A stretch of 35,179 nucleotides of DNA, taken from NCBI GenBank assembly GCA_003635305.1, contig PYJE01000137.1:1-35179 (forward strand), given 5' to 3'. Origin of the DNA: Candidatus Poribacteria bacterium (lineage in GTDB: Bacteria; Poribacteria; WGA-4E; WGA-3G). How positions within the stretch are numbered: position 1 is the first letter of the stretch; each line of letters starts with the position of its first letter. The notes below the pieces were generated by a model. It did not search any database. It was not told where the DNA came from and worked only from the letters and a program-made list of their open reading frames with translations. Shown here one piece after another: positions 6,363-35,179 of this stretch. Made by a program: the position numbers and the translations under genes.

Positions 6363-6366
6363 ACCA

Positions 6367-7173
6367 ATGCTGAATCTCGTGCGGGAAACCGTCGTTTCCT
6401 ACGCCTTCATTGAACGCAATTTTAACTTGGTGAAGCGGTATCTGAGTTGGGAAATCCTGTTTTTCAGTTACTCCATCGTTAACGCGCTGACTATCGGTTT
6501 AATCATGGTAGGCCGCGGCACGAGTGATGATGTGCTTTACCTCGTCATCGGCGCGCTCGTCTGGGGCTTCCTCTCCGTTATGATGCGCGAAGTCAGCGAC
6601 GCAATCACGTGGGAACGGTGGGAAGGCACGATAGAGTATACCTTCATGGCACCGATTCACCGCATCACGCATCTCGTCGGTTCTTGCCTGTTCGCAATCT
6701 TGTATGGACTTTTGCGGACAGGGCTCGTTTTGGCGATAATGCCGCACTTCTTCGGTGAATACATCGACCTCGGGCGCGCTAATTGGCTCACGATGGGCAT
6801 TACGGTGGCCGTTTCCAGCCTCTCTTTCATCGGAATTGGGCTGATGGCGGCGATTTTTCCACTGCTCTCACCAGAAAAAGGACAGGCGGCGACAGGGATT
6901 ATCCAATCGCTGCTGCTGTTAGTCTCCGGCATTTATTACGAGATTGAGGTGCTACCGGAATGGTTGCAACCACTTTCTTGGATTTCCCCGGCGACTTACA
7001 CCCTCAAATCCATCCGTGCGGCGATGCTTGAAAACGCATCGGTTGCGAGTCAGGCAGGCAATCTACTGTTGCTGCTGATTATCGGGATAGTGCTGATTCC
7101 GGTCGGATTCTGGGTATTCCATGTCGGCGAGAAATATGCCAAGCGCGTGGGCAGGTTGAAGCGGAGTGGATAG
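6367..7173 (+). CDS. ABC-2 type transporter permease
   Basis: ATG 6367 follows a GAGGAGGA site that overlaps the end of the ATPase gene. The product has 268 residues and about six membrane segments: a cytoplasmic N-terminus with segments near residues 30-50, 55-75, 100-125, 140-165, 175-195 and 235-255. Its length and topology fit the ABC2_membrane family, with the conserved late PLSWISPATYTLKSIR segment. It pairs with the preceding ATPase to form an exporter. Confidence 0.9.
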   Translation: MLNLVRETVVSYAFIERNFNLVKRYLSWEILFFSYSIVNALTIGLIMVGRGTSDDVLYLVIGALVWGFLSVMMREVSDAITWERWEGTIEYTFMAPIHRITHLVGSCLFAILYGLLRTGLVLAIMPHFFGEYIDLGRANWLTMGITVAVSSLSFIGIGLMAAIFPLLSPEKGQAATGIIQSLLLLVSGIYYEIEVLPEWLQPLSWISPATYTLKSIRAAMLENASVASQAGNLLLLLIIGIVLIPVGFWVFHVGEKYAKRVGRLKRSG

Positions 7174-8810: not shown

Positions 8811-9710
8811 ATGAATATCCGCTTTGAAGGAATTTTTACGCCCACGGTAACGCCACTTGATGCAAAAGAACGCGTTGATGAACTCGGATTTACCAAGCAA
8901 CTTAACCGTCTCATCGGCAGCGGCGTTCACGGCATCTATCTCTTAGGCACCTCCGGTGAATTTACCACGCTGACTAACATGGAACGCGAACGCGCCATTG
9001 ACATTGCCGTGAAGGTGGTTAACGGCCGCGTGCCGATTGTCAGCGGAGTCATGGATACCAGCACGCAACGCGTCATCCAAAACATTGAGATTGCGCAAGA
9101 GTTCGGCGTGGATGCTGTCGCCGCAACACCAGGTTACTACTACCCCTCCACCGACGACGCAGACTTAATCGAATTCTACGAGGCTATCGCCGCCAGCACA
9201 GCCCTGCCGGTGCTGATTTACAACATCCCGTCTACTGTTAAAACGGCGATTAAACCCCAGATAGTCGCCGAACTCGCCGACCGGTGTGATAACATCATCG
9301 GCATGAAGGATAGTTCCGGCGACTGGACTAACTGCCTGAACCTCTTGGCACTGCTTGGAGACAGAGACGATTTCTCCCTCCTACTCGGTTCGCATACCGC
9401 CTTGGGGGCGGCGTTATTATTCGGTGCTGATGGCGGAGTTGTCTCCATCTCAAACGTCGCGCCGAAGCAAGCCGTCGCGCTTTACAACGCCGGGAAGGCA
9501 CGCGATATTGACGAAGTCCATCGGTTGCAAAAATGGCTGCTCCGACTCAGCAAAATTTACACCTATGGACAAGGCGTGAGCGGCATGAAGGCGTGCTTGG
9601 ACATTCTCGGAGTCTGCCAAGCGCATACGACGAGCCCGCTGCTCCCGGTGAACGATGCCGCCAAAGCAGAAATTCAGCTGCTGCTCACGGATTTGGGGAT
9701 TTCCGAATGA
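8811..9710 (+). CDS. Dihydrodipicolinate synthase family aldolase
   Basis: ATG 8811 follows AGGAGCGAG. The 299-residue length fits the DapA/NanA TIM-barrel family. Marks are the pyruvate-binding loop GTSGEF (46-51), Tyr137 in YNIP and the Schiff-base Lys166 in GMKDSSGD. Classical DapA has GTTGE and NanA usually has GSTGE; here it is GTSGE, so the loop does not settle the substrate. The product could make dihydrodipicolinate for lysine and peptidoglycan or cleave another 2-keto-3-deoxy acid. Its stop overlaps the aroA start (ATGA). Confidence 0.85.
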   Translation: MNIRFEGIFTPTVTPLDAKERVDELGFTKQLNRLIGSGVHGIYLLGTSGEFTTLTNMERERAIDIAVKVVNGRVPIVSGVMDTSTQRVIQNIEIAQEFGVDAVAATPGYYYPSTDDADLIEFYEAIAASTALPVLIYNIPSTVKTAIKPQIVAELADRCDNIIGMKDSSGDWTNCLNLLALLGDRDDFSLLLGSHTALGAALLFGADGGVVSISNVAPKQAVALYNAGKARDIDEVHRLQKWLLRLSKIYTYGQGVSGMKACLDILGVCQAHTTSPLLPVNDAAKAEIQLLLTDLGISE

Positions 9711-10978
9711 ACGAGATTCAACCCCTTCGCAAACCAGTCGATGCCACGATAGAGGTGCCGGGCTCTAAAAGTTATACCAACCGCGCGTTGTTAGTCGCCG
9801 CGCTGGCGAATGGACGCTCAACGTTAACCGGCGCGCTCTTCAGCGATGACACGCGCTACATGTGCAACGCACTGCGAAAACTCGGTGTCCAAATCGAGGC
9901 AGATGAAGCACAAGCAACTTTCCATGTCAACGGCAACGGTGGAGACATCCCAGTGGAGAGCACGCAACTCTACATCGGGAACTCTGGCACCACATCGCGC
10001 TCCCTCGTCAGTTATGTCTCGCTCGGACACGGCGAATTTGTCATTGATGGTGATGAACCGATGCGGCGCAGTCGTCCTATCTCCGATTTGTTGGACGCAC
10101 TGACACAAATCGGTGTTGCCGCGCGTTCGCAATTTGACAACGGACATCTCCCAGTCATCGTGCAGGCAAACGGCCTGAAAGGCGGAAAAACCCGACTGGA
10201 TGCCAGCAAGAGCAGTCAATTCCTCACCTCACTCCTCCTCATCGCGCCTTACGCCAAAAACGATATGGAGATTGAGGTGGTTGGCACGCTCAAAACGCCT
10301 TATATTGACATTACCACCTCTGTCATGGACGCGTTCGGCGTGACCTTCGTCAATAACACGTATCGGCGTTTCCGCATCGCAGGGCAGCAGTCGTATCAAC
10401 CTCGCGAGTATCAGATTGAGCCGGATGCCTCCAGTGCCTCCTATTTTTTCGCCGCCGCTGCACTTACCGGTGGGCGCGTCAAGGTGAAACATTTGCATCT
10501 CAATTCGGTGCAAGGCGATGTCCAATTCGTGCGCGTCTTGGAAGAGATGGGATGTCAGGTGAACGCCGCTGCCGATGGCATCGAAGTCATCGGACCGGAA
10601 CGTTTGCACGGGGTTGACGTGGATATGAACGCACTCTCCGATACTGCGCTGACCTTGGCGGCCATTGCACCCTTCGCCGATAGCAAAACCGTTATCCGAA
10701 ACATTGAACATACCCGCTGGCAGGAGACAGACCGGATTCATGCGATGGTGACAGAGTTGCGCAAGTTAGGTGTGTCGGTGGTAGAGCATCGCGACGGCGT
10801 AGAGATTATGCCTGCGCCTATTGTTCCCGCAGCGATTGATACCTACCGCGATCATCGCGTAGCGATGGCATTCTCGCTCATCGGTTTGAGAGTCCCTGGG
10901 ATTCAAATTTGCGCCCCGGGTTGCGTGAGTAAGACGTTTCCGCATTTTTTTAGGGTGTTGCAGGGGTTGTATGCTTAA
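9707..10978 (+). CDS. aroA: 3-phosphoshikimate 1-carboxyvinyltransferase (EPSP synthase)
   Basis: ATG 9707 overlaps the dapA-like stop by 4 bp, indicating translational coupling. The 423-residue length is usual for the family. It joins shikimate-3-phosphate and PEP in aromatic amino acid synthesis. Marks are PGSKSYTNRALL (the Lys that binds S3P and PEP, residue 20), GNSGTTSRSL (about 89-98) in place of the usual GNAGTAMR, DGDEPMRRSRP, KSSQFLTSLL, and the late TYRDHRVAMAFSL. The GNSGTT-S-R version, with Ser where Met is common, is a variant of the PEP-binding loop and could alter glyphosate response. That is inference. Confidence 0.93.
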   Translation: MNEIQPLRKPVDATIEVPGSKSYTNRALLVAALANGRSTLTGALFSDDTRYMCNALRKLGVQIEADEAQATFHVNGNGGDIPVESTQLYIGNSGTTSRSLVSYVSLGHGEFVIDGDEPMRRSRPISDLLDALTQIGVAARSQFDNGHLPVIVQANGLKGGKTRLDASKSSQFLTSLLLIAPYAKNDMEIEVVGTLKTPYIDITTSVMDAFGVTFVNNTYRRFRIAGQQSYQPREYQIEPDASSASYFFAAAALTGGRVKVKHLHLNSVQGDVQFVRVLEEMGCQVNAAADGIEVIGPERLHGVDVDMNALSDTALTLAAIAPFADSKTVIRNIEHTRWQETDRIHAMVTELRKLGVSVVEHRDGVEIMPAPIVPAAIDTYRDHRVAMAFSLIGLRVPGIQICAPGCVSKTFPHFFRVLQGLYA

Positions 10979-11295: not shown

Positions 11296-11324
11296 TTGCA
11301 ATAAAGAAAAAAGGGTGGTATACT
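11296..11324 (+). promoter_or_regulatory. Array-proximal promoter of CRISPR array 1
   Basis: TTGCAA (11296-11301), 17 nt ending GTGG, TATACT (11319-11324). The predicted start, about 11331, lies inside the degenerate first repeat. The sequence AATTTAATTTGCA before it also precedes the tRNA-Ala promoter. Confidence 0.65.
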
Positions 11325-11328
11325 TAAT

Positions 11329-12699
11329 ATAGTTGCTGAGGCATGGTAAAGTTGCAACCCGTACCGCGCTGCCTGCGATGATAAGGGGGGAATTGAGTTT
11401 CCGCTTTGGCATGGTAAAGTTGCAACTTTGTGGAGCTGGGAGGTTGCAACGGATACGTGGACGCGTTTCCGCTTTGGCATGGTAAAGTTGCAACTTGAAA
11501 AGTTTCGCAAGCGCATCCATTGACGGCGGTTCGTTTCCGCTTTGGCATGGTAAAGTTGCAACGGGAGGTGGAATGCTAATGAAGATTCTGATAGGGTGCT
11601 GTTTCCGCTTTGGCATGGTAAAGTTGCAACTCAAAGAGTTCGTCAACTACCCGGTCATTCAGGATAATGTTTCCGCTTTGGCATGGTAAAGTTGCAACCT
11701 GAGGTTGCAGCGTCAGGGATTCGGTTTCAGGATTGTTTCCGCTTTGGCATGGTAAAGTTGCAACCGCAGTCGCGTGCGTCAGATTGCTGACGAATTAGAA
11801 GCGTTTCCGCTTTGGCATGGTAAAGTTGCAACTGCCATATCGTTCTTCTAAATCGACTTGTACATCGTGGTTTCCGCTTTGGCATGGTAAAGTTGCAACA
11901 AACGGCATCCTTAACACCATCGAACAAGATAACGGCGTTTCCGCTTTGGCATGGTAAAGTTGCAACCTATTTCAGATAGAAGTTGCAAATCCGAGGCAAT
12001 AGAGTTTCCGCTTTGGCATGGTAAAGTTGCAACGGCATGTTGCGCCCGCTCGTCGCCATCTGAATCCACGTTTCCGCTTTGGCATGGTAAAGTTGCAACG
12101 CGAAAACATCGCCTCTATTTTGTGAGGGTTCACCGGAGTTTCCGCTTTGGCATGGTAAAGTTGCAACGATACGTCCGAGACAGGTTGACTTCCCGGAGTT
12201 GCGGTTTCCGCTTTGGCATGGTAAAGTTGCAACCAAGTCTAACCCACCCCGCCAAATATGCGAGGACAAGTTTCCGCTTTGGCATGGTAAAGTTGCAACT
12301 GACATACTCCGCGCCGGCTGGCACGTCACTCACTGGTTTCCGCTTTGGCATGGTAAAGTTGCAACAGAGTGATTTCTATGCATTTGCGACTGCGTTCTAT
12401 GGTTTCCGCTTTGGCATGGTAAAGTTGCAACCAGACAGGCTCGCGCGAAAGAAAACCGAACTCGCGGTTTCCGCTTTGGCATGGTAAAGTTGCAACCAAC
12501 CCGAAAAAAGAGTTCGATCACTTCATGGATGTCGTTTCCGCTTTGGCATGGTAAAGTTGCAACGCGTTTGGTGAATGGAAACTATTCCGACGACGCTCTT
12601 GTTTCCGCTTTGGCATGGTAAAGTTGCAACCAGGATTTGCCCGACAGCGTCGTCGATTGTCGGATTAAGGTTTCCGCTTTGGCATGGTAAAGTTGCAAC
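11329..12699 (+). CRISPR. CRISPR array 1: 21 repeats of 30 bp, 20 spacers
   Basis: Repeats begin GTTTCCGCTTTG and end GCATGGTAAAGTTGCAAC. They start at 11329 (degenerate), 11397, 11465, 11533, 11601, 11669, 11735, 11803, 11870, 11937, 12004, 12070, 12138, 12204, 12270, 12336, 12402, 12467, 12534, 12601 and 12670. Repeats 2-21 appear identical. Spacers are 35-39 nt and all different. The first repeat keeps only its 3' 18 nt. Spacer length and the unique spacers rule out a simple tandem repeat. The array points into an omega/tracr-like RNA region and then iscB, with no cas1 or cas2 nearby. Confidence 0.97.
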
Positions 12700-13080
12700 G
12701 CTGGGTTTCGAGCCAAGTGCCGCAGTGCCTGAGCGTTAAGGACTTGCAGTCGACCTCTAGTGCCGCAAAAAAGGCGGTAGGTTGACTGCAAAGTTGCAAT
12801 AAAGCCATGTTATCTCCGCTTTCGCGGAGCAGGGATTTGGGTAAATGCCTTCTTTCCTGAATTAATCGGAATCTAGCTTACGTTTTCATTAACTACGTTA
12901 TCTCTGTTATCACACCTCCAGATACGCGTCGTAGGACGTAGATACGCCCCGCAGGGCGTAGGGCCAGTCTGGAGCAATGTGGGGGCACTGTAAAAGTCTC
13001 TTGCAAAGGTGAGGCGGTCAACCCTGAAGTAAGCAGAGATAACATTAGCGAGGCTCACATTACCACCGAAAGGTGAGGAC
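12700..13080 (+). ncRNA. Omega-RNA/tracrRNA-like region of locus 1
   Basis: In order: a 12-nt variable stretch; a block shared with locus 2 (GCCAAGTG at 12712, TGCCTGAGCGTTAAGGAC from 12726); a hairpin closed by TTGCAGTC (12744-12751) and GACTGCAA (12784-12791); and an anti-repeat, GTTGCAATAAAGCCATG (12793-12809). Then come a CTCCGC-TTTC-GCGGAG hairpin (12814-12829) and a long-range stem GTTATCTCTG (12897-12906) with CAGAGATAAC (13034-13043). The latter encloses CTCCAGA/TCTGGAG and TACGCCC/GGGCGTA hairpins. IscB proteins use an omega-RNA encoded just upstream of their gene, which fits. The RNA ends are unknown; the region may make one or two RNAs. Confidence 0.85.
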
Positions 13081-13084
13081 ATTT

Positions 13085-14743
13085 ATGTCAAAAGTAGCCG
13101 TTTTAGATACGAACAAGAATGTGTTGGAACCGTGTCATCCTGCAGTCGCGCGGCGTTTACTGAAACGTGGTGAAGCCGCGGTTTTGAAACGGTATCCATT
13201 CACGATTATTTTGCAAAAGGCGGTGCCTGCCGATGAGATTGTCACCCAGGCCTATACGCTGAGTGTGGATCCGGGTTCCAAGGTGACAGGGCTCGCCATC
13301 ACAACGGAAGATGCCGAGATAGTGTATGCGGCGGAACTCCACCATCGTGGCGCGCAGGTTAAGAAAGCGTTGTCTGACAGAGCGGGCTTTCGCCGCGGTC
13401 GGCGTACCCGGAATTTGCGGTATCGCCCCGCGCGTTGGGCAAACCGCGCGCGAAAAGTGCCTGTGCTGACTGACGCGGGTTGGACGTATCAACGCGCCGC
13501 AAAAGAGGAAGGTAACGATGCGAGTAAAACGCAGAATACCTTCAATCGCGTTTCATGGTCCCAATTTCGGGATAAGCGGTATCGGTGGGAACGTCTACCC
13601 CCGACAAAGACAAACCGACGACAAAAGCAACGCTGGAAGCGCGTCCGCGTCGAACATCAGAAGCGCGCAGATAACGGTTGGGTTGCGCCAAGTCTCATGT
13701 CCCGCGTCTTCAACTTGGAGACATGGACGCGGCGGTTATGCGCTGTCTATCCGATAACGCGACTTGCGATTGAAACCGTGAAGTTTGATTTGCAGTTGAT
13801 GGAGGACCCCGACATTCACGGTATCCAGTACCAACAGGGCACATTGCATGGGCGTGAAATCCGTGAATACCTATTGGAACTCACGAAGCGCAAATGTGCG
13901 TACTGCGGAAAGAACAAGGTTCGCCTTGAGGTTGAACACATTATTCCCAAAGCGCGCGGGGGTTCAAGTCGCCCGGACAATCTCACGATGGCGTGTCGCC
14001 CGTGTAATGAAAAGAAGGGTAACCTCGTCGGTGAGGCGTTGGCGGCGAAGTGTGGGGAAGACTTCGCGAAGAAGGTTGAAGCCGCTAAACGGAAGTCCAC
14101 AAAGCGGTTAACGGATGCCACCGCAGTTAACACGATTCGGTGGAAGATTTACGAGACGCTGGAGGCAACCGGACTGGATGTCCGTCCCGGCACCGGCGGG
14201 AAGACGGCTTATCACCGAAACCTTGCAGGCTTACCGAAAACGCACTACTACGATGCCGCCTCGGTTGCTTGCATTCCGAAACACCCAGCACAGCTAAGTG
14301 TTCAGGTGATTCAGGCTATCGGCTACGGCCGACGTGATAACATCGGCAAGAAGTTTTCAATGAAGGCACCCGGCTTCGTGTTACCTTCTGAGAAACGCGC
14401 GGCGAGTGCAGGCTTCCGCAAGTTTAGCCATGTTGAACTTACGAAAGCCAATGGCACGAAATGGCGCGGCGTTCTCAACTGCTTTGATAAAACCCCCAAA
14501 GGCAAGCCGCGCAAAGTCCGTGTAAAATACTTCGCACCCGATGTGAAAGACCCGAGGAAGTCTGGACATACTGGCGAATTACGATTACTCCAACACCGTG
14601 ATGGGTATAGCTACGGCAACCTTGTTGCAAACATGGAGTTCCGTGAACCGAAAACGCCTGCGCCTGAGACAGCCCAGCCCTGCACGGATACGGGCGATGC
14701 TATGATGGGCGCGCAATTAGATTTTTTATCTCATTTGCTGTAG
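13085..14743 (+). CDS. iscB: IscB1: RRXRR/RuvC/HNH RNA-guided nuclease, CRISPR-associated
   Basis: ATG 13085 follows GGTGAGG; an in-frame GTG at 13073 overlaps that site. The product has 552 residues. Domains: an N-terminal PLMP-like segment (VLEPCHPAVARRLL, 13-26, and YPFTIIL); RuvC-I DPGSK with Asp62; an Arg-rich bridge helix (101-125); an insertion of about 70 residues (126-197); RuvC-II with Glu230; an HNH domain (271-313) with zinc-type cysteines 271, 274, 304 and 307 plus His285 and Asn299; and RuvC-III with His387 and Asp390. A C-terminal domain from about residue 440 probably contacts target or RNA. All catalytic residues are present. IscBs are the ancestors of Cas9 and cut DNA guided by omega-RNA. 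Here the gene follows a CRISPR array and an anti-repeat-bearing RNA. The 3' end overlaps the convergent DUF5131 gene by 18 bp. Confidence 0.95.
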   Translation: MSKVAVLDTNKNVLEPCHPAVARRLLKRGEAAVLKRYPFTIILQKAVPADEIVTQAYTLSVDPGSKVTGLAITTEDAEIVYAAELHHRGAQVKKALSDRAGFRRGRRTRNLRYRPARWANRARKVPVLTDAGWTYQRAAKEEGNDASKTQNTFNRVSWSQFRDKRYRWERLPPTKTNRRQKQRWKRVRVEHQKRADNGWVAPSLMSRVFNLETWTRRLCAVYPITRLAIETVKFDLQLMEDPDIHGIQYQQGTLHGREIREYLLELTKRKCAYCGKNKVRLEVEHIIPKARGGSSRPDNLTMACRPCNEKKGNLVGEALAAKCGEDFAKKVEAAKRKSTKRLTDATAVNTIRWKIYETLEATGLDVRPGTGGKTAYHRNLAGLPKTHYYDAASVACIPKHPAQLSVQVIQAIGYGRRDNIGKKFSMKAPGFVLPSEKRAASAGFRKFSHVELTKANGTKWRGVLNCFDKTPKGKPRKVRVKYFAPDVKDPRKSGHTGELRLLQHRDGYSYGNLVANMEFREPKTPAPETAQPCTDTGDAMMGAQLDFLSHLL

Positions 14744-17623: not shown

Positions 17624-20600
17624 CTACAAAGGCCAGCCCCCATGCTGTTGAATTTCCAATTCGATCTCCGGCATCACCGACAGGGTTTCGTGCAGGGCCT
17701 GGCAGATGGCCTGATAGTGCCGAATATCCACCGGTTGCAAGATGCGTCCCTTCCGAACTTTCAGCCAGCTTTGCGCAGGTGGATACGCGCCGATCTGGAA
17801 TTCCCAAACTTCTGGCGCGACTCCCTCAAAATACTGATGCTTATTTATCCAAACCCGCTCATCTGAATTATCATAGCGAACTTGTCCGACAACGTTGCTG
17901 CCCGCCACCTCAAAGCGAGGTTCATTTTTGTGAACCGTGCCCTCTGGAGATAGGATATGGCAATGGACTAACCGTTTGCCAAATTCGCACAACCTGCGGA
18001 AAAGATTTGGCTGACGTGTGAACGGAATCCGCGGAAAATCGGTTTTGAGGAATTCTGCATAGCGTTCCTGATAGGTAGGCGCGTAAAGCACGGCATAGAG
18101 ATAATGTAAAACGTCTTCTGCGCCGAAGGTTTCGCGCAAATCGCCACAGCCGCATCCGATAAAACGCATATCTAGATGTTGCGCGAGTTTTTCGGCAAAT
18201 CCCGCCGCAAAGTTCGGTTCAGGTGCCTCGCTACCATCAGGATAGCGGTAGAGTGGAAAAAAGTAGTAGTGGTTGGAGATGGCCAACATATTGTTAGAAA
18301 CGAAGGCGTGACACCACCGAGACGCTTGTGGATTGTGCCGAGCCGTAATCAAACCGACATTTGAAGTCGCGAAGAAATGCTGCATCACATCACGTCTAGG
18401 CCTGTCGAGAAATCCACCAGAGCGTCCCGTGTAATACGTAAATCGCGTGTCAAACGGCCGGTAGCAAATCGGCACAGTATGCTTAGTAGTGTCAGGACTC
18501 AAGGTATCTCCGAGGACTGGCGGCTCGTTCAAATCCTTTTGTATACGCGCGACTGTCTTTTCGGCTAAACCGAATTGTTGACACGCCTCATCTACTGAGA
18601 GGGTCCGGAATTGACGAACTGCTTGGAGCACATCTTCTCGCGTATAGTGAATCGTTAAGTCGTCTCTGCCGCTAGAGATACTCACCGAATTGACAGGGAA
18701 AATGTCCTTAACGCTTATGCCGCTCTCATATTCTTCCCGGTAGGTTCCCTCTTTGGGAACGAGGAAATAGTTAGGCGACATCGGAGAAAGTTCACGCCAC
18801 TGCGTGGTGTGGATATCGTTTTCCGATAACCAGTCCATTTTGCTTGCGCGGTTCCCCCAGAGAGCTGCGTAAAAAACGCGGCAAGGCCCTTTCGCGTTTC
18901 CTTCCTTCTTGACAAAGAAACCGATTGCAACGCCTTGCTGGATGTCAAACACGTTCTCGTCTCTCCCACCGTCGGGAGTTCTCTCTTTTTTTCGGAGGTT
19001 TCCGTGCAGATTCAGCAGATAAATCTCGTCAAATGCGTTCAGCAAACTGTCCCGCATTCCCCGGAAGGTGAGATTATCAAGGTAGCCGTGGTTAGTAATG
19101 CAACCGAGCACGCCATAACCTGTCCGTTCAATATGCCACTGCGCGATGCGGATAAATTTGACGTAGTCGTCGTTGAGCATTTTCGGGTTTCTCTCATTGA
19201 GCGGCTGCCCATCGACTTGGAAGTAGTTCGCTGTCGCGGTATCGCTGCCATCGGAGCCGCGCAGCAGATTGTAAATCCAATCGCTTTTGTTTGCGGAGTG
19301 GACAGCGTAAGGCGGGTTGCCAAGGATAACCATCAGTTGATACAGTTTTTTAATTTTGATGGCGGCGTCGCCTTCCTTCGCAATCGGGTTTTCTTCCGCG
19401 AGATAGAGCTGCAAGTCGCGTTCATCCAGCGTATTGGTGAGGTAAACGCGCAGTCGTTCGTCTTGCGTAAAGTGGTAACCCATTCTGGCGAGGTGTTGCG
19501 TTAAACTGAGGTGACACATCGCATACGGTGCTACCATCAATTCAAAACCGAAGAGGCGCGGCAGAAGATGTTTCCGAACGTAATCCGGCCAGGTTCCCGG
19601 CGAATTGCCTTGCGACGTGATGTAGGCATCGTGCACCTTGTCAACGACATGCCGCAGGAAAGTGCCGGTACCGGTGGCCGGGTCAAGAATTGTCACCCGC
19701 GGTTGCGTTCGCGCCGCACCGCTGTGTTGCGCGACGGTCTCGGCATCGGCGAGCCCATCGGGAATGCCGAAATCTCTCTGTAAAATCTGATGGACGCTCC
19801 GGACGATATAGGATACCACTGCATCCGGCGTGTAGTGTACCCCGCGCAACTTCTTCTCGTTCGGGTTATACGCCTTTAAGAACGTCTCATAGAAATGGAC
19901 AATGGCATCGCCTTGGGCAGCGTCCTTCAGAAGGTTATGGATATCAAGCTCCTCAAGGAACGCAACCAGATCATCCACAATCCAGTTCAGGTCTGCGTCA
20001 AGCAATATTTTTTGTGAAAACCTGGGTTCTTGCAGGAGGGCGGCATCTTCCTGCAGTCCCTTATCGGCGCGCGTGAAAATCGCATGCAGAAACGGACTCG
20101 TTTTCAGGAAACCTTTCACGGCACTCTCCCGCGTAAACGGGCCTGTTTTGTGTTCAGCACGGGCGGCAAACAGCCCATACGTCATCGTTTGGGCAATCAT
20201 GTCCGCGAATTGCGACGCAGATAACCGCTCAACAAGATGTTCACGGAACGCCGCGAAGAGTTCGCCGAGTTTCGAGGCACTGTCGTTCTCCAGAATACGG
20301 CTTATCCCGTACCGAAGGAGAAGTGCCTTCTGGCTCAACCGCGCCGCTAAATCTTCCGGACTGATGACGACGAGAGGTTGATACCCGTAAATGAAGGCGT
20401 TCAGCAAATCCCGGATGTCGGATGCATTTTCTGGAAGATACTGAATGTTCCGCTGCGGCGAGATGTCGCCAAGCCGAACGCTTTGATGCTTCTCACTCTG
20501 ACGATACAGGCGGAATTCAAGGTAATCCGTCAAAATGAGATTTTCCAATCCGTTTCGGTACCTTTGGAGCTGCTCTGTCTCCTCGATTCTGTCAAGGTTG

Positions 20601-20824
20601 GCACCAATATTTTTCGCCTCAATATAACCGACTGGTTGCCGATTCTTGAGAATAAGCATGTCTGGCGCGTTGCGTCCGAGATGCGTCGGTTCGTTGATTA
20701 CCGTCCATTCGTCGGATTTCAGAAAATCGGTGAGCAGCCGCTCAAGATTTGAGCGATACGTATGTTCGGTTGCGCGTCTGCTGTGCCACTTCTGCTCTAT
20801 TTTTCTGAGATATTCCTTAAACAA
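17624..20824 (-). CDS. Type IIG/ISP restriction-modification enzyme
   Basis: This 1066-residue protein begins at TTG 20824, 8 nt after GAGGG. An N-terminal PD-(D/E)xK-like nuclease is seen as Pro54-Asp55 ... Glu69-Ala-Lys71 (APDMLILK...YIEAK). A helical connector leads to GVHYTPDAVVSYIV (328-341), SAM motif I DPATGTGTFL (381-390) and the N6-adenine motif NPPY (503-506). The remainder, about 600-1066, is the target-recognition part. Cleavage and methylation in one chain is the type IIG/ISP plan. It is the last gene of the operon, 14 nt after tsaB. Confidence 0.9.
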   Translation of the reverse strand: MFKEYLRKIEQKWHSRRATEHTYRSNLERLLTDFLKSDEWTVINEPTHLGRNAPDMLILKNRQPVGYIEAKNIGANLDRIEETEQLQRYRNGLENLILTDYLEFRLYRQSEKHQSVRLGDISPQRNIQYLPENASDIRDLLNAFIYGYQPLVVISPEDLAARLSQKALLLRYGISRILENDSASKLGELFAAFREHLVERLSASQFADMIAQTMTYGLFAARAEHKTGPFTRESAVKGFLKTSPFLHAIFTRADKGLQEDAALLQEPRFSQKILLDADLNWIVDDLVAFLEELDIHNLLKDAAQGDAIVHFYETFLKAYNPNEKKLRGVHYTPDAVVSYIVRSVHQILQRDFGIPDGLADAETVAQHSGAARTQPRVTILDPATGTGTFLRHVVDKVHDAYITSQGNSPGTWPDYVRKHLLPRLFGFELMVAPYAMCHLSLTQHLARMGYHFTQDERLRVYLTNTLDERDLQLYLAEENPIAKEGDAAIKIKKLYQLMVILGNPPYAVHSANKSDWIYNLLRGSDGSDTATANYFQVDGQPLNERNPKMLNDDYVKFIRIAQWHIERTGYGVLGCITNHGYLDNLTFRGMRDSLLNAFDEIYLLNLHGNLRKKERTPDGGRDENVFDIQQGVAIGFFVKKEGNAKGPCRVFYAALWGNRASKMDWLSENDIHTTQWRELSPMSPNYFLVPKEGTYREEYESGISVKDIFPVNSVSISSGRDDLTIHYTREDVLQAVRQFRTLSVDEACQQFGLAEKTVARIQKDLNEPPVLGDTLSPDTTKHTVPICYRPFDTRFTYYTGRSGGFLDRPRRDVMQHFFATSNVGLITARHNPQASRWCHAFVSNNMLAISNHYYFFPLYRYPDGSEAPEPNFAAGFAEKLAQHLDMRFIGCGCGDLRETFGAEDVLHYLYAVLYAPTYQERYAEFLKTDFPRIPFTRQPNLFRRLCEFGKRLVHCHILSPEGTVHKNEPRFEVAGSNVVGQVRYDNSDERVWINKHQYFEGVAPEVWEFQIGAYPPAQSWLKVRKGRILQPVDIRHYQAICQALHETLSVMPEIELEIQQHGGWPL

Positions 20825-21582: not shown

Positions 21583-22571
21583 TCCAATTCAACCAATAGT
21601 TCTGAACGGTGGTTCAGCCCTTGCTCCTGTTCTTGTAGAATTGCTCCTGGCGTGACAGAGTCTTGCACTTCATCGGAAAGTATGACAGGCAAGATTTTGT
21701 CCAACGCCGCTTGCAGTTCGCCGGTAAACGGGCGGCAGGGAATAGAGAGTTCGTTAAGCACCTGCTCAAATCGCTGATACCCGTTGGATGCCTGAAGTTC
21801 GATCCAGAGGATGTTGTGTGCATCCATCTGCGCTTTGTTGAGGGCAGAAAGTTTATTGGCAACCAGCACACGGCTTCCGCGCGCGTAAACCGCGTCTGCA
21901 CTTTCGGGGTTCCCTTTTCCCATGAGTTTCACTTCGCAGCGGTGCTGCGTGCCGGTTGCATCGCGCAGATAAAAATCCGCTTCTCGCGATGATGCCGGCA
22001 GCTCGCTCTGATCGAAGAATCTCCTCGGCACGCGGAAAAGAGCACAAAGCGTTGCCATCAGAGGTTTTTCGACCTGTTTCCCAGCAGTGCTCCACAAGCC
22101 TCCGCGAAGTGCCGAACGTTTGACTGCCAGCGTGTTGATGACAACCAAACTCTCGCTAAGAGTCAGATCGACGCTTACGTGACGAAGTTTTATGGTTAAC
22201 GTTACGTCAACATCGTCCTGCTCGGTGAGGTTGTTAATCGCGTTGTAGAGAGCATCGTAGTGTTCCAACGATGCCTCTAGGACGATTTTCTTGCTCGCCG
22301 AATTATACATGTTGGAGATAGTCTTTATGTTCATGCCCGAATGAACGGCTACCTCTTCCTTGCTCAATGCCTCATTGCAGAGGAGTTCCTTTCTATACCA
22401 ATCGGCGGTTACGGCTTCATTATCCAACTTCGCATGCGCAATGCGTTTGAAAAAATCCACAACGTATTGCAAAAACTCGGCATCGATTAGGGTAATGACT
22501 TCCGACCGGTAATCTTCACCCGCAATGAGTTTGCGAATGATATTTTTGATGACGATTCCGGTAACAGTCAC
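21579..22571 (-). CDS. CfrBI-like type II restriction endonuclease
   Basis: The product has 330 residues, starting at GTG 22571, which overlaps the methyltransferase stop (GTGA). The N-terminal half is helical with an HTH-like stretch (LSKEEVAVHSGMNIKTISNM, 69-88). The C-terminal half carries a PD-(D/E)xK-type core: R-E-A-D-F (Glu197, Asp199), then C-E-V-K (Glu213, Lys215). The architecture and the gene pair agree with the CfrBI family (target CCWWGG in the type member). The target here is unknown. Coupling to the methyltransferase supports the call. Confidence 0.75.
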   Translation of the reverse strand: MTVTGIVIKNIIRKLIAGEDYRSEVITLIDAEFLQYVVDFFKRIAHAKLDNEAVTADWYRKELLCNEALSKEEVAVHSGMNIKTISNMYNSASKKIVLEASLEHYDALYNAINNLTEQDDVDVTLTIKLRHVSVDLTLSESLVVINTLAVKRSALRGGLWSTAGKQVEKPLMATLCALFRVPRRFFDQSELPASSREADFYLRDATGTQHRCEVKLMGKGNPESADAVYARGSRVLVANKLSALNKAQMDAHNILWIELQASNGYQRFEQVLNELSIPCRPFTGELQAALDKILPVILSDEVQDSVTPGAILQEQEQGLNHRSELLVELE

Positions 22572-23971
22572 GGTTTGTGATTCCTCCGTTTTTCAGTTTG
22601 AAGTTCTGCCAAGGAGAGGCTCCTTGGCGGCTGTTCAGGTGAAAATAGGGACGCGTCAAGCCGTTGCATCGCGCGTTCCACGTATTCTTCCTCTTTTTCA
22701 CAGAGGAGAAAATACCTTTCCAGGGCCATCGCTGCTTGTCCAACGGTACCGCTCCCGCCAAACGGGTCGAAAACCAGATCTCCCTTGAAGGAGTAAAACT
22801 GAATGACGCGCGCCGCCAACTCGACTGGAAAAACGGCCGGATGAACTTTGTCCGCTGAGGGATTAATGTGCCAGACATTTGTCTTTTCATAATCCCCCAC
22901 GATTTTGCTGGATTCAATGGTTTCCGCGTTATATTGCCGCATGTTCCAATCGATCAGCTTGTCCGTTTTCTTCCGGTATACCATAACTGATTCGGTGACA
23001 GAATTCGCCTTGTAACCGAGCGGTTTACGGTGTTGAAAGAAACCGCCGTTGCGGTTCTTCGCAGCATAATCCGGTTTCACCCAAGTGATGTCATCAATAA
23101 ACTCCCACCCGATTTCGGTGAGGCGCGGGTGGATGTCGTAAGGGATGGCATACCGCTTGCTCGCATGCGCACGACTAATACGCGGCACGATGACCGGGGA
23201 CGTATTCAACACGAAGAACCGTCCCTCTTTCGTGACGCGGTGCGTCTCCGCGAAAACGGTGACGAGAAATTCAAGATACGCCTCGTAACTCTCAAAAATC
23301 GTGTAATCGCGCGCATTGTAGTAGGGCGGCGACGTGAAGGTGAGATGCACCGACGCTGTCGGAATCGCTCGCAAAACTGCACTCACATCCGCACAGACAA
23401 CCACGTTTTTCAGGAAATCGGGACTGAGCGGATGCGGCTGCCGTTGCACGTCACTCTCGATATCGCTGACAGGTGCCAACGCCTGACTGACGTGTTCACG
23501 GAGCAATTCATTCGGGTGTTCGCGCAGCGGCGTTAAGTACCGCAGAACTTCCGGATGTTCCTTGAAGCAGAGCAAGCCGCGCACTGCCTGCAGGATAATT
23601 TTCGGTGCTGTGTCTGTCAGGAAGTGTCTCAACACCGGAATCGCCTTCTCGCTTTTGAGCCTGCCGATTGCCGATACTGCCTCTCGGCGCGCCAGCGTGT
23701 TTTTCTCGGCACGCGCAAACGCCGACAATGCCTCTAAGAACGTTTCGTCTTTCAATTTCCCGACGTTTTTCACGGCGAGGCAGCGGATTTTCGGGTTCGG
23801 ATGCGCGAATAACGGAAGAAACACCTCGCCATCAAACCCTCTCGGCAGCCGGCCGAGGTTCTCAAGCGTGAAGAGAAGTGTCTGCTCCGGCGTGTCCGCG
23901 GCGAGCACGCGCGCGAAAAATGGCGCGTTCGCCCGCAATTTTTCAGTGTCAATCTCCGATTTTGTTATCAT
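22568..23971 (-). CDS. HEAT-repeat-fused DNA methyltransferase (N4-cytosine type)
   Basis: ATG 23971 follows GAGGTG with 8-nt spacing; a TTG at 24010 also opens the frame but has no site. The product has 467 residues. Residues 1-170 form HEAT-like helical repeats (PNPKIRCLAVKNVGKL, TLARREAVSAIGRLKSEKAI, LLREHVSQAL). The catalytic motif TSPPY (213-217) precedes SAM motif I FDPFGGSGT (401-409), a beta-class order seen in N4-cytosine and some N6-adenine methyltransferases; TSPPY favours N4-cytosine. It is the first gene of the restriction operon. The HEAT part may serve protein or DNA contact. Confidence 0.88.
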   Translation of the reverse strand: MITKSEIDTEKLRANAPFFARVLAADTPEQTLLFTLENLGRLPRGFDGEVFLPLFAHPNPKIRCLAVKNVGKLKDETFLEALSAFARAEKNTLARREAVSAIGRLKSEKAIPVLRHFLTDTAPKIILQAVRGLLCFKEHPEVLRYLTPLREHPNELLREHVSQALAPVSDIESDVQRQPHPLSPDFLKNVVVCADVSAVLRAIPTASVHLTFTSPPYYNARDYTIFESYEAYLEFLVTVFAETHRVTKEGRFFVLNTSPVIVPRISRAHASKRYAIPYDIHPRLTEIGWEFIDDITWVKPDYAAKNRNGGFFQHRKPLGYKANSVTESVMVYRKKTDKLIDWNMRQYNAETIESSKIVGDYEKTNVWHINPSADKVHPAVFPVELAARVIQFYSFKGDLVFDPFGGSGTVGQAAMALERYFLLCEKEEEYVERAMQRLDASLFSPEQPPRSLSLAELQTEKRRNHKP

Positions 23972-24027
23972 TTTAAGCACCTCGGTCGATTTTTTGACGA
24001 TTTTCCGCAAAAAAAGTGCAATTTAAT

Positions 24028-29258: not shown

Positions 29259-29575
29259 CTTGGAGAAGCGCGGTTGAAAACCGCGCCTACCGAGGGGAGG
29301 AAGCAGCACCACCTTAGGCTAGGCGCGGTTGAAAACCATGTCTACCGAGGGGAAGGAGTAGCAGCCCCTTGGAGAAGCGCGGTTGAAAACCATGTCTACC
29401 GAGGGGAGGAAGCAGCAGCACCTTGGAGAAGCGCGGTTGAAAACCGCGCCTACCGAGGGGAGGAAACAGCAGTGCCTTGAAGAGGCGCGGTTGAAAATCA
29501 TGTCTACCGAGGGCAAGGAGCAGCAGTGCCTTGGAGAGGCGCGGTTGGAAACCATGCTTACCGAGGAGAAAAGAC
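29259..29575. repeat. Six-copy REP cluster, about 54-nt period
   Basis: Six copies of (A/G)GCGCGGTTGAAAACC followed by GCGCC or ATGTC, then TACCGAGGGG. The variable arm switches between an intact palindrome (GCGCC) and a broken one (ATGTC). It fills the gap between the NYN and M23 genes. The frames through it are artefacts. Confidence 0.88.
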
Positions 29576-29630
29576 AGCAGCGACTTGCCATTGCGTAAGT
29601 CTTGTAGCAGTAGCAAAGGATAACCTATTG

Positions 29631-30605
29631 ATGTATACCTTCATCATCATGTCATCGGGCGGTAAAACCTTTCGCCAGCATCCGATCGGCCCGGGGCACC
29701 TAGTGCTCTTCGCGCTGGTTGTTCTCCTAGCCGTTGTGGGGACAGTCGGCGGGATAGTCTACGGGCTCCACCAAAAAAAGAAAGCCATCACTGCTGAAAA
29801 ACAACGACAAAACTCATTGGAGAGAATCGAACGCTTGGAACAGGCGAAGCTCATCGTCGATACAGAACTTGAAACCGTTGAGGCGGAGATGGACGATATC
29901 CGCGAAATGGCCGTAAAGGTCAAACAGGGATTAGGGCTCTTCGGGCAAGGCGGCGGCACTTATGAACCGACATCGCAGACCGACACCGATGCCGGACCCT
30001 GGCAACCGGCAGATGCAAACGGCGCAGCTCCCAACTCCGAATCCTACAACGGAAATACCGAAACGCAAACCCTCGCACCGGACATCCTCAGACAGGAAGT
30101 TCAGCCGCTTTACGATTACGTCATCAAACACCAAGAACAGGCGAACGGGTATCCTTCACTCCTGCCGGTTCAACTGGAGCAGGAAGGCGAAAAGGAGAAG
30201 CTGGTTTTCTGGTATTCTTCGCCGTTTGGACAGCGCATTCATCCTTTGACGAAAAAGCGCGAATTTCACCGCGGATTGGACATCAAAACGCGCCCCGGGG
30301 TGCCGGTCATCGCCGCCGCAGATGGCACCGTCGCCAAGGTAAAACGGGAGACGTATCTCGGCAAGATGGTAGAGATTAACCACACCGCGCAACAGTTGAA
30401 AACCTTATACGCGCATTTGCAGGGTTACGCCGATGGACTCAAGGTAGGACAGAAAGTCAAACGCGGGCAGGTCATCGGCTATGTCGGGAATACGGGACGC
30501 AGCACCGGCCCGCATCTCCACTACGGCGTTTACGATACTCGCCAACGAAAATGGGTGAACCCAATTGGCTACATCCTCGACCAGCAACCAGCTTTTAAGC
30601 GTTAG
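29631..30605 (+). CDS. M23 family peptidase (LytM/EnvC-like)
   Basis: ATG 29631 follows AAAGGA; ATG 29649 is an alternative. The product has 324 residues. One membrane segment (about 24-47) is followed by a coiled coil (about 50-100, EKQRQNSLERIERLEQAK...), a low-complexity linker and an M23 domain (about 200-320). Zinc ligands are seen in FHRGLDI (His-x3-Asp) and in STGPHLHYGVY (His-x-His). It is a periplasmic, membrane-tethered peptidoglycan endopeptidase or an EnvC-like amidase activator. The catalytic motifs look intact, so I favour an active enzyme. Confidence 0.9.
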   Translation: MYTFIIMSSGGKTFRQHPIGPGHLVLFALVVLLAVVGTVGGIVYGLHQKKKAITAEKQRQNSLERIERLEQAKLIVDTELETVEAEMDDIREMAVKVKQGLGLFGQGGGTYEPTSQTDTDAGPWQPADANGAAPNSESYNGNTETQTLAPDILRQEVQPLYDYVIKHQEQANGYPSLLPVQLEQEGEKEKLVFWYSSPFGQRIHPLTKKREFHRGLDIKTRPGVPVIAAADGTVAKVKRETYLGKMVEINHTAQQLKTLYAHLQGYADGLKVGQKVKRGQVIGYVGNTGRSTGPHLHYGVYDTRQRKWVNPIGYILDQQPAFKR

Positions 30606-30625
30606 TGGCATAATTCCCATATCTC

Positions 30626-30895
30626 TGGTAGGCGCGCTTTGCAAGCGCGCACGCCTTCTTCTCCGGGTTCTGGTAGGCGCGGTTTTCAATCGTGCACACC
30701 TCCTTCTCATGGTTCTGGTAGGCGCGGTTTTCAATCGTGCACGCTTCCTTCTCACGTTTCTGGTAGGCTCGCTTTTCAAGCGCGCATGCCTCCTTCTCAC
30801 GTTTCTGGTAGGCTCGCTTTTCAAGCGCGCACGCTTCCTTCTCATAGTTCTAGTAGGCTCGCTTTTCAAGCGCGCATGCCCCGCTGCGCGTTTTG
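30626..30895. repeat. Six tandem 45-nt REP units
   Basis: Six units of exactly or nearly 45 nt, each GGTAGGC(G/T)CG then (G/C)TTTTCAA(T/G)CG then a CCTTCTTCTC-like spacer. The length is a multiple of three, which keeps long false reading frames open on both strands. Confidence 0.9.
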
Positions 30896-32378: not shown

Positions 32379-34157
32379 TTACCACAATCTTAACTGACTT
32401 ACATCAACCGCTTTCTGTCTGCGCCGCTTTGTCTGTGGTAACACAATAGGTTTTCCACCGAGTGTCGTCTCCGACAAGGGAGTTAGCGTTGGCGACAGTG
32501 CCGCTCCGGAAGAAATTTGCGTCACGTCCGCCTGCTGCGCTGTTTCCGGTGCTGGCCGTGCGAAATGCTTTTGCGGTGCTGCCGTTTCATAGAAATACGC
32601 GTAGCCATCCCGATGCTGAATTCTGCGAAGTTCCGATGTTTTAAAAGGCTTGCGAGCTTTGCTTTCTAAACCGAACTTCACTCGAACAGTTTGAGTTGGA
32701 GTGTTATTAAAGCAATTGATTGTCCCGGTAACCCGCGTTGTTTTCCCTTGATAGGATTTCATACCCACGACGTGGTCGAATTTTTTGAAACCCATCCGTT
32801 CAATCCGTTTTCGCTTTCCGTAGTTGAAAAGCGTCCAATTCGCATTCGGGTTTTTTTCTTGCGCGGCAAGAATCTCCCTACGCTTTTCAGGGGTTTTCGC
32901 AGTTTTGAGTTTCTTCTCCATGCGTTCACGTGTTTTGGACCGTTTGGCATCTAATTCGGCGCGCCATGCTTTTCTCGCGTCAGCATCCATGTTTTGATTC
33001 TTTGGAAAAGGGCTCCGGAAACTGAACAAATCGCGCGTGCCATAACCGAGTGCCTTGATACGCATCACACGTAAGCCTTTGACAGGAGCAGGGGTTCCAC
33101 AGGTGCAGGCTGCATCGTAATAATGCGTTTTGGGTAATCCTGCCCGCGTGCGATTAAACTTCGTTTGCCCACCTGTCACACAGTGAACCGGTAACCCTGT
33201 CGTTTGTAATGCCTCAAATATCTTCCAGCGGATCGTGTTAACCGCGGCAGCATCCTTCAGAATCGGAATCCCATCGTTGACAATCTTCCGGACAACTTCG
33301 CCCATTTTGCCCTTGAGCTCATCAGGTAGTTTGTTGTCCTTTTTACGATTACAAGGGATGCAGGCGGTAACAAGGTTATCATGTCGAGTGGGGCCACCTT
33401 TGGACTCTGGAATCACATGGTCGGTATTGAAGGGGCCTTCCTTTGTCCCGCAGTAGCGGCACCGATGTTTATCTCGATGCAAAACATACTCCCTCAATTC
33501 TGTGTGCCAGAGTGTGCCGCGTTGGTAGGCGACACCCTTGATGTCAGGATTCCTCATCAGTTGCGTGTCAAATTTCACGTTTTCAAGCACGAACCCGCGG
33601 ATCGGGCAAACGGCCCGCAACCGATTCGCCCAGGTCGTGATATTGAAAACCCGCGACATCAAGGAAGGCGCGATCCACCCTTTGCCATCGCCGTAGCCGC
33701 GTTTTGCATTTTTGACGCTGATACGTTGATATGTCCAGCAGATCCGATTTCCTTCGAGATGTGGCATTGCAACCGCTCGTTTGCGATGCTGCCACCGGGC
33801 TTCTCGGTATCGGCAGTGACGATGTCGCCGAGAGCGACGGTATCCCTTCCGAATAGTTAATCCATCTTTAATCGAAAGGTGCCTATGTTCAACCTCAAAT
33901 GCCCGCTCTATTTGGTTTGTCCGCCTATTCACCAGTGCCATACCGGTGATTTTTGAACCCGGATCCACACAGAGCAGGCGTTCGTCGGTTTGCGGGTCTT
34001 CGATCCGACGTTTCAGGATAATCGTAAAAGGATACGTTTTGAAAACCGCAGCTTGTCCCGACTTCAAAAGCCGCCGCGCCACCGCAGGATGACACGGTTC
34101 AAGCGGTGTTTTCTCCGCATCGATAACGAAAACAGGTTCAAAACTTCTTTTCGACAT
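32379..34157 (-). CDS. iscB: IscB2: RRXRR/RuvC/HNH RNA-guided nuclease, CRISPR-associated
   Basis: ATG 34157 follows GAGGAA with 8-nt spacing; the frame upstream of it is not needed. The product has 592 residues. Its N-terminus TPLEPCHPAVARRLLKSG matches IscB1. RuvC-I is VDPGSK with Asp65; the bridge helix is about 104-128; the insertion before GWIAPSL is about 35 residues, half that of IscB1. RuvC-II has Glu192. The HNH domain is about 233-275 with Cys233, Cys236, Asp246-His247, Asn261, Cys266 and Cys269. RuvC-III has His345 and Asp348. From about 385-450 there is a charged helical insertion (DADARKAWRAELDAKRSK...) absent from IscB1, then a C-terminal domain similar to that of IscB1. It lies downstream of array 2 and its RNA region on the same strand. 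Confidence 0.95.
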   Translation of the reverse strand: MSKRSFEPVFVIDAEKTPLEPCHPAVARRLLKSGQAAVFKTYPFTIILKRRIEDPQTDERLLCVDPGSKITGMALVNRRTNQIERAFEVEHRHLSIKDGLTIRKGYRRSRRHRHCRYREARWQHRKRAVAMPHLEGNRICWTYQRISVKNAKRGYGDGKGWIAPSLMSRVFNITTWANRLRAVCPIRGFVLENVKFDTQLMRNPDIKGVAYQRGTLWHTELREYVLHRDKHRCRYCGTKEGPFNTDHVIPESKGGPTRHDNLVTACIPCNRKKDNKLPDELKGKMGEVVRKIVNDGIPILKDAAAVNTIRWKIFEALQTTGLPVHCVTGGQTKFNRTRAGLPKTHYYDAACTCGTPAPVKGLRVMRIKALGYGTRDLFSFRSPFPKNQNMDADARKAWRAELDAKRSKTRERMEKKLKTAKTPEKRREILAAQEKNPNANWTLFNYGKRKRIERMGFKKFDHVVGMKSYQGKTTRVTGTINCFNNTPTQTVRVKFGLESKARKPFKTSELRRIQHRDGYAYFYETAAPQKHFARPAPETAQQADVTQISSGAALSPTLTPLSETTLGGKPIVLPQTKRRRQKAVDVSQLRLW

Positions 34158-34677
34158 TGGATATTCCTCATGCCGTGTTGGAGGAAAAATCCACACAACA
34201 CGGCATCAGCTCTCCTTCCGGAGGTAAAGTGTGCATCGTCAAAACTCGTGTGCTTTTGTCACATGCATCAGATACTGACACATGTAGCGGTGGGGGCGAG
34301 AGGCCGTCACCGGCTTTGTTTCTACCCACGACAGTTTTTGCTCCCGCTTACTATCTCGCCGACACCATTACGCCGACGAACTATGCCCTATGGCACTAAC
34401 GAGGAGGTGTCCTCACACTAAAGGTGTTTTCACACCACCGAGCGTAGTCTTGTGAAAAGACTCTGACTTTATCATCGCTTGGGCAAGTGGTTGCACTCCT
34501 GCTGTCTATCTCCGCCGATTTTTGTGCAGCGTTGTTCGGTAAACCGAACAACGCATCTTCGGCGGTTTGTAGTAACAAACCGCCTACACAAAAATCGGAC
34601 AGCAACTCTTGCGTTACCAGAGATAGACAGCAAGTCCTTAAGGCTCAGGCATTGATACGCTTGGCTTTTGCTATAGG
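34158..34677 (-). ncRNA. Omega-RNA/tracrRNA-like region of locus 2
   Basis: Reading on the minus strand from the last repeat: 12 variable nt (34677-34666), GCCAAGCG (34665-34658), TGCCTGAGCCTTAAGGACTT (from 34651), and a 13-bp stem TGCTGTCTATCTC/GAGATAGACAGCA (34632-34620 with 34512-34500). Inside it are a 12-bp stem (34598-34587/34526-34515) and two long hairpins (34584-34561 and 34554-34529), making a three-way junction. Then comes the anti-repeat (34496-34472). Downstream are AGTCTT/AAGACT and GGTGT-GAAA-ACACC hairpins and TGTGAGGAC, which is also near the end of locus 1. A further hairpin, ATGCCGTGTTG/CAACACGGCAT, precedes iscB2. No gene is seen. Confidence 0.85.
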
Positions 34678-35179
34678 GTTGCAACCAAACCATGCCCAAG
34701 CGATGACGTCCACGTTGCGAACCTCCTCATGCCGAAGATGCGGTGTTGCAACCAAACCATGCCCAAGCGATGACACGGCATCGCCGTCAATGCCAATTCT
34801 TTCAGATTGAAGTTGCAACCAAACCATGCCCAAGCGATGACGAAGTCCAGTTGCTGGTAGAAAAAATCGCGGATGGAGTTGCAACCAAACCATGCCCAAG
34901 CGATGACTTGCTCCAACAGCGTGGACTTTCACCGAGTCATCTGAGTTGCAACCAAACCATGCCCAAGCGATGACGTTTTCGGACAAGGCGAATCGGCTGC
35001 ACGGACAGTGGTTGCAACCAAACCATGCCCAAGCGATGACTTGCAAGGGATTTCCATATTTTTAGCGATTTCGGAGTTGCAACCAAACCATGCCCAAGCG
35101 ATGACGCAAGTTACCGCCGATAACTGGCTTCGTCAAGGAAGGGTTGCAACCAAACCATGCCCAAGCGATGACTTGCTCC
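34678..35179 (-). CRISPR. CRISPR array 2 (partial): 8 repeats of 30 bp, 7 complete spacers
   Basis: In the direction of iscB2, repeats begin GTCATCGCTTGG and end GCATGGTTTGGTTGCAAC; array 1 has CGCTT, GGCATGG and GTTGCAAC at the same positions. Plus-strand repeat starts are 34678, 34745, 34812, 34878, 34945, 35011, 35076 and 35143. All eight appear identical. Spacers are 35-37 nt and unique. The array runs past the window end. The repeat nearest iscB2 is intact. Confidence 0.96.

Follow-up and report, generated by a model that had tools for sequence, protein, structure and literature searches.

The 35,179-nt window analysed here (the whole stretch, positions 1 to 35,179 of contig PYJE01000137.1 of a Candidatus Poribacteria bacterium) carries two CRISPR arrays, each followed by an RNA gene and by a gene for the endonuclease IscB, a small relative of Cas9 that usually travels on mobile elements. 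We investigated the second of these loci (locus 2, with iscB2), which is very likely a CRISPR-associated IscB immune cassette, judging from its sequence and from comparison with related loci. At locus 2, the order array, RNA gene and iscB2 runs along the minus strand, and locus 1 has the same order on the plus strand, as a sequence-only reading of this DNA had described. The features of both loci are listed in Table 1.

Table 1. Features of the two IscB loci, with positions in the window
Feature	Position	Strand	Basis or detail
iscB2, 592-aa RuvC/HNH endonuclease	32379..34157	-	RRXRR E 4e-52, HNH E 3e-12
IscB2-specific insert, residues ~376-445, helices 392-419 and 423-435	32823..33032	-	alignment, AlphaFold2 model
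omega-RNA-like scaffold, from anti-repeat to iscB2 start	34158..34469	-	alignment; family motif at 3' end
tracrRNA-like anti-repeat, complementary to CRISPR repeat	34470..34496	-	duplex energy vs shuffles
putative leader, from last repeat to anti-repeat	34497..34677	-	conserved hairpin arms 34619-34633 and 34499-34513
CRISPR array 2, repeat GTCATCGCTTGGGCATGGTTTGGTTGCAAC	34678..35172 in window, on to ~35,860 of contig	-	8 perfect 30-nt repeats in window
sigma-70-like promoter TTGCAA-17-TATACT, TG-extended	11296..11324	+	directly upstream of array 1
CRISPR array 1, repeat GTTTCCGCTTTGGCATGGTAAAGTTGCAAC	11329..12699	+	21 repeats, first degenerate
leader-like hairpin, anti-repeat and HEARO-like omega RNA	12700..13084	+	folding, duplex, Rfam HEARO
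iscB1	13085..14743	+	RRXRR and HNH domains

Array 2 continues past the window. On the whole contig (C137, 62,440 bp), it comprises 17 perfect 30-nt repeats and one degenerate repeat; this count is a minimum because an assembly gap (a run of Ns at 35180–35231) lies inside the array, directly past the window end. The spacers of both window arrays are 35–39 nt long (35–37 nt in array 2) and no two are alike, with 15–20 unique spacers in each array. The two repeats are identical at 23 of 30 positions, in line with the proposal that they are related but different. The anti-repeat of locus 2 covers nearly the whole repeat, and the duplex reached −40.6 kcal/mol, a strength found in none of 200 dinucleotide shuffles (z approximately −5.6 to −5.9). 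In the minimum free energy fold of the last repeat together with the interval, 25 of 30 repeat bases were paired with the anti-repeat, and therefore the last unit can form one continuous guide RNA. The anti-repeat of locus 1 (~12792–12812) pairs chiefly with the 3' half of its repeat. Cross duplexes (repeat 1 with interval 2, repeat 2 with interval 1) were near shuffle level, and the locus-2 repeat paired with the locus-1 anti-repeat at −26.9 kcal/mol, compared to −27.4 kcal/mol for the locus-1 repeat itself. By duplex energy, the orthogonality of repeat and RNA between the two loci is only partial.

In 85 genomes of the phylum Poribacteria, we found seven array-bearing IscB cassettes, namely the two in this window and one each in G023 (L052), G027 (L054), G083 (L055), G047 (L051) and G048 (L053). 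A contig scan with one protein as query gave no match, and a scan with an alignment was used instead. G047 also carries two single-repeat loci (L049, L050), and G015 and G017 encode short IscBs without arrays. A tree of 82 IscBs was built by a short search without bootstraps, from a sample picked by similarity (poribacteria, cyanobacteria, Chloroflexota, other phyla and IMG/VR). In this tree, the nine poribacterial proteins from array and single-repeat loci formed one clade (Shimodaira–Hasegawa-like approximate likelihood ratio test 100), with IscB2 as the deepest branch of the array-bearing poribacterial clade. The array-less poribacterial IscBs lie outside this clade, and the single-repeat forms are nested in it, beside L051 and L053. 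Because the array-bearing IscBs form one clade, the association of array and IscB looks inherited within it; the position of the single-repeat forms among array forms suggests that these arose by secondary loss. This nested position disfavours single-repeat loci as ancestral intermediates.

Locus 1 is orthologous to L054 of a sister species, with flanking DNA ~84% identical, and the two arrays have zero spacers in common (20 bases in the best chance match). In G027 and G028, the genes on either side of locus 2 are both conserved and lie ~330 and ~180 bp apart, versus 4.8 kb here; locus 2 was therefore gained or lost as one block. Besides the cassette, the additional DNA at this site includes ~1.2 kb past the array. 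The proposal that the cassette is a heritable unit and not a chance association is supported by the order and RNA in five other genomes, by the co-variation of repeat and RNA described below and by the presence or absence of locus 2 as a block. IscB2 was not found among array-less IscBs with an unrelated array beside it; it belongs to a supported clade and has a matching anti-repeat.

The same evidence bears on the possibility that array 2 belongs to a type I-B or I-D system of the host, with the adjacency of iscB2 being fortuitous. The host has both type I systems with cas1, the repeat length of 30 nt and spacer length of 36–37 nt match those of its type I-B array, and arrays beside IscB can be chance neighbours, as at L073 and L169. 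However, the repeat of array 2 is unlike the type I-B repeat in sequence, and arrays with a repeat of this type occur nowhere else in the host genome. The anti-repeat in the interval before iscB2 and the fact that seven cassettes of one clade share this order also speak against this explanation. We regard type I ownership of the array as highly improbable and as already largely refuted.

The best repeat–interval duplex was found at the corresponding place in every poribacterial array cassette. Compared with shuffled sequences, the duplex was strong in locus 2, L050, L055 and L053 (0/200) and moderate in L054, L049 and locus 1 (2–6/200). When repeats and anti-repeats of nine loci were permuted, only 19 of 100,000 permutations were as low in energy as the matched pairs; the two elements co-vary, as claimed for a coevolving repeat and RNA. 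Arrays near three other IscBs (L073, L142, L169) had no comparable anti-repeat and were rejected as true cassettes, being taken as chance neighbours. The repeat of L053 (G048, 8936–9849) is 37 nt long and unlike that of the other cassettes, yet has a matching anti-repeat; a second array with a different repeat lies directly upstream of L053.

The RNA of locus 1 (12809–13063) matched the HEARO family with 66.9 bits (E 2e-13), under the gathering score of 83, and this match begins at the anti-repeat. The RNAs of array-less poribacterial IscBs (L056–L058) scored 134–148 bits. In contrast to locus 1, the RNA of locus 2 gave no match to HEARO (RF02033) at E ≤ 1, and its interval between array and iscB2 is 520 nt long versus 284–428 nt in the other cassettes, which agrees with the elaborated RNA proposed for this locus. 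In the alignment, the 3' end of the scaffold retains the family motif GACGA-GC-CAC-TTTACC. An Rfam TD-1 match in locus 2 (22 bits, gathering score 64.5) was taken as chance. The hairpin between last repeat and anti-repeat is kept in all seven cassettes, with extra inner hairpins in locus 2. Standard pairs filled 90.5% of its pair cells and never exceeded 56% in slid versions of it. Five pairs were changed on both sides, a number reached by 2 of 500 shuffles, in a count for which the arms were excised and joined by hand.

RRXRR and HNH domains are present in both IscB1 and IscB2, as are the catalytic residues of RuvC and HNH. In IscB2, all of these residues are intact (RuvC-I D65, RuvC-II E192, HNH H247 and RuvC-III H345/D348, invariant in the alignment), and the architecture is that of IscB: an N-terminal domain, a split RuvC domain, a bridge helix, an inserted HNH domain and a C-terminal domain for the target-adjacent motif (TAM). 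The top PDB match of the AlphaFold2 model of IscB2 (predicted local distance difference test score 75) was IscB 8csz (E 4.7e-23), and the best PDB sequence match was TbaIscB (135 bits). The insertions of the two proteins differ, as had been noticed. IscB1 has an extra 60–70 amino acids between the bridge helix and RuvC-II, whereas the insert specific to IscB2 has two helices (residues ~392–435) and is located in the C-terminal, TAM-interacting region.

Among the sequences matched by spacers of L055 and L051 was the major head gene of a phage (phrog_3922, E 1e-14), also in related IMG/VR contigs. The neighbours of this gene are terminase-like, portal-like and protease-like, with labels from reading of the open reading frames (ORFs). 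Spacers of these loci also matched a CopG-like ORF of a phage, the gene of a TnpB-type transposase and one more site in G074. The five matching spacers come from two related cassettes (in G083 and G047), and their best matches are all flanked by 3' YGG: GG was found at +2 and +3 in 5/5 best protospacers (CGG in four, TGG in one). Five random sites had GG in none of 200,000 draws, and shared any dinucleotide at any of 14 positions in 59. Two locus-2 spacers match the host chromosome, one in an adhesin-like gene (C182:9924-9959, 36/36) and one in a DegP-like protease gene (C68:27768-27804, 36/37; gene labels from sequence reading). Both sites have CCG on the 5' side, which is CGG only on the opposite strand. 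If a 3' NGG is required, these spacers are therefore in a harmless orientation and the host would be spared. Spacers of the related cassettes had no match in GenBank phages, and the type I-B spacers of the host had no protospacer in the phylum. Searched in IMG/VR, the core of repeat 2 gave no match and that of repeat 1 gave two chance matches.

L050 (IMGVR_UViG_2744054414_000001; L140, L281) is a single-repeat IscB on a stretch called viral by IMG/VR. On this stretch there is also the phage head gene against which IscB spacers from other loci are directed.

In locus 1, locus 2, L054, L055 and L051, it is the iscB-distal end of the array that has the degenerate repeat. L055 shows a gradient, from two degenerate repeats through three with GTTATCG to four with GTTATCA beside the RNA. 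New repeats copy the leader-side repeat, which makes the RNA-side hairpin segment the most likely leader. No crRNA (CRISPR RNA) needs the first repeat, so its decay alone is weaker evidence for polarity; the argument is based on the gradient in L055 and the perfect repeats on the RNA side. From these patterns, new units appear to be added to the arrays on the side of the RNA gene. Transcription of the array seems to start at the old end and proceed towards the new one because sigma-70-like sites lie upstream of the far end. Array 2 has such a site (TTGACA-17-TAAAAT, 11/12) ~49 nt upstream of its far end, and the promoter hexamers of array 1 are also present upstream of the orthologous array L054.

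The host genome has two cas1 genes, both on other contigs. One (C170) belongs to a type I-D-like system, with a Cas4-Cas1 fusion and Cas2, and the other (C185) to a type I-B-like system (labels from ORF reading). Genomes G023, G027, G047 and G048 also have cas1 elsewhere. Because of these genes, and because repeats and spacers have the lengths of the host type I-B array, a supply of adaptation machinery in trans is plausible. The cassette might even be wired backwards compared to the usual CRISPR array, growing beside the omega RNA and being transcribed from the opposite end, with Cas1-Cas2(-Cas4) of the host type I systems feeding IscB in trans, a proposal that we put forward tentatively and hold to be somewhat doubtful. 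Read from the leader, a 3' NGG is a 5' CCN, the kind preferred by type I adaptation, and therefore this machinery could supply IscB. If so, the newest spacer would always be in the cis single-guide position.

Several observations weigh against the interpretation of locus 2 as an immune cassette. No cas1 or cas2 was seen in the cassettes, those neighbouring proteins of locus 2 that were searched included no cas genes, and cas1 is entirely absent from the one-contig genome G083. The arrays of the window yielded no phage protospacer (one weak, unusable match in GenBank phages, E 0.04), and the NGG motif was derived from the G083 and G047 cassettes and not from IscB2. Moreover, the duplex was weak and not significant in L051 (12/200, z −1.6) and L052 (43/200, z −0.7), and the own repeat/anti-repeat pair was not always the best pair.

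Two alternatives draw on such observations. IscB2 could be an OMEGA nuclease of the usual transposon type, guided by its cis RNA alone and serving element retention, with the array as a relic or by-product. The lack of cas1 in cis and the two self-matching spacers fit this explanation, as do the two G047 loci, L049 (~8956–9269) and L050 (~6254–6607). The 5' neighbour of their single repeat differs between the copies, which therefore have flanking DNA in the guide position, as in OMEGA systems. We consider an OMEGA nuclease very unlikely at locus 2, given the probable secondary origin of the single-repeat forms, the number of unique spacers in each window array, the matches of relatives' spacers to phage capsid and TnpB genes with a shared 3' motif, and the turnover of arrays between sister species. 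Among the scanned neighbours of locus 2 there were no transposases; no search aimed at TnpA was made. Alternatively, the cassette could be a memory relic that still interferes and acquires no more spacers, as the missing adaptation genes (also in G083) would suggest. This is unlikely, as all locus-2 repeats except the terminal one are perfect and array 1 shares none of its spacers with its ortholog in the sister species.

A CRISPR-associated IscB cassette thus remains the preferred reading of locus 2, which is probably a minimal immune system. In this reading, cleavage, RNA processing, spacer acquisition, NGG as IscB2's own motif and the source of adaptation are inferred. From a promoter at its distal end, the array would be transcribed together with leader hairpin, anti-repeat plus omega-RNA scaffold and iscB2 as a single RNA. 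Each crRNA (spacer, then repeat) would pair through its repeat with the anti-repeat, like the crRNA and trans-activating crRNA (tracrRNA) of Cas9. The last repeat may fold in cis onto the anti-repeat, resulting in a natural single-guide RNA with the newest spacer. The targets of RNA-loaded IscB2 would be phages and transposons, whose DNA it would cut where a spacer match is accompanied by a 3' NGG-type motif. New spacers would enter the array on its RNA side, through Cas1-Cas2 machinery provided in trans.

CRISPR-associated IscB ('CasIscB') was reportedly described by Altae-Tran et al. in 2021. It is an already known kind of system, and locus 2 is a poribacterial variant with a split guide, a putative reversed growth polarity and, in its relatives, phage and transposon targets that share a 3' motif. 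The likeness lies in the adjacency of IscB and CRISPR array on one strand, separated by an RNA; array 2 is adjacent to iscB2, on the same strand and linked to IscB by the anti-repeat and the clade. 'CasIscBs' are named in PMC13180657, and Zhang et al. (2025, Nat Commun 16:10693), as cited in PMC12991159, deals with CRISPR-associated IscB. These exact loci may already have been described within this literature. With OMEGA IscB and its omega RNA (HEARO, RF02033), the cassettes share the protein architecture, the sub-threshold HEARO match of the locus-1 RNA and the conserved 3' end of the RNA. In contrast to OMEGA IscB, locus 2 has an array, its guide–adaptor stem is split into repeat and anti-repeat, and IscB2 lies outside the sampled array-less groups. 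Type II systems with Cas9 (including II-D/Cas9d) resemble locus 2 in the array with a tracrRNA-like anti-repeat and in the NGG-like 3' motif of related cassettes. However, IscB2 has only 592 amino acids, an IscB-type N-terminus and a long scaffold RNA in place of the recognition (REC) lobe. Its best folds are IscB, no insert of REC size was found from the bridge helix to RuvC-II, and no cas1, cas2 or cas4 was seen in its locus.

Between the two cassettes, the window encodes a type ISP restriction-modification protein (17624–20824) and a separate HEAT-repeat DNA methylase (22568–24010), which makes the region a possible defence island. GC-rich palindromic units (GCGCGGTT..AACCGCGCCTACC and relatives) are dispersed over 29268–29592 and 30569–30880 of the window and C137:36870-37070; those at the last site match dozens of places in the sister genome. 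In L057 (G015:C394, 1867–4705), an array-less IscB adjoins cas1, with a cobalamin riboswitch upstream; the 581-aa open frame of this cas1 suggests a Cas4-Cas1 fusion.

The finding addresses the route from transposon nuclease to adaptive immune effector. One clade holds array-bearing and single-repeat forms, and array-less forms lie just outside it in the same phylum. If adaptation is indeed borrowed from the type I systems, an IscB immune system of this kind would be a step between the transposon nuclease and Cas9. Split versus single guide RNA in one locus, in-trans adaptation and the orthogonality of two cassettes in one cell become testable here.
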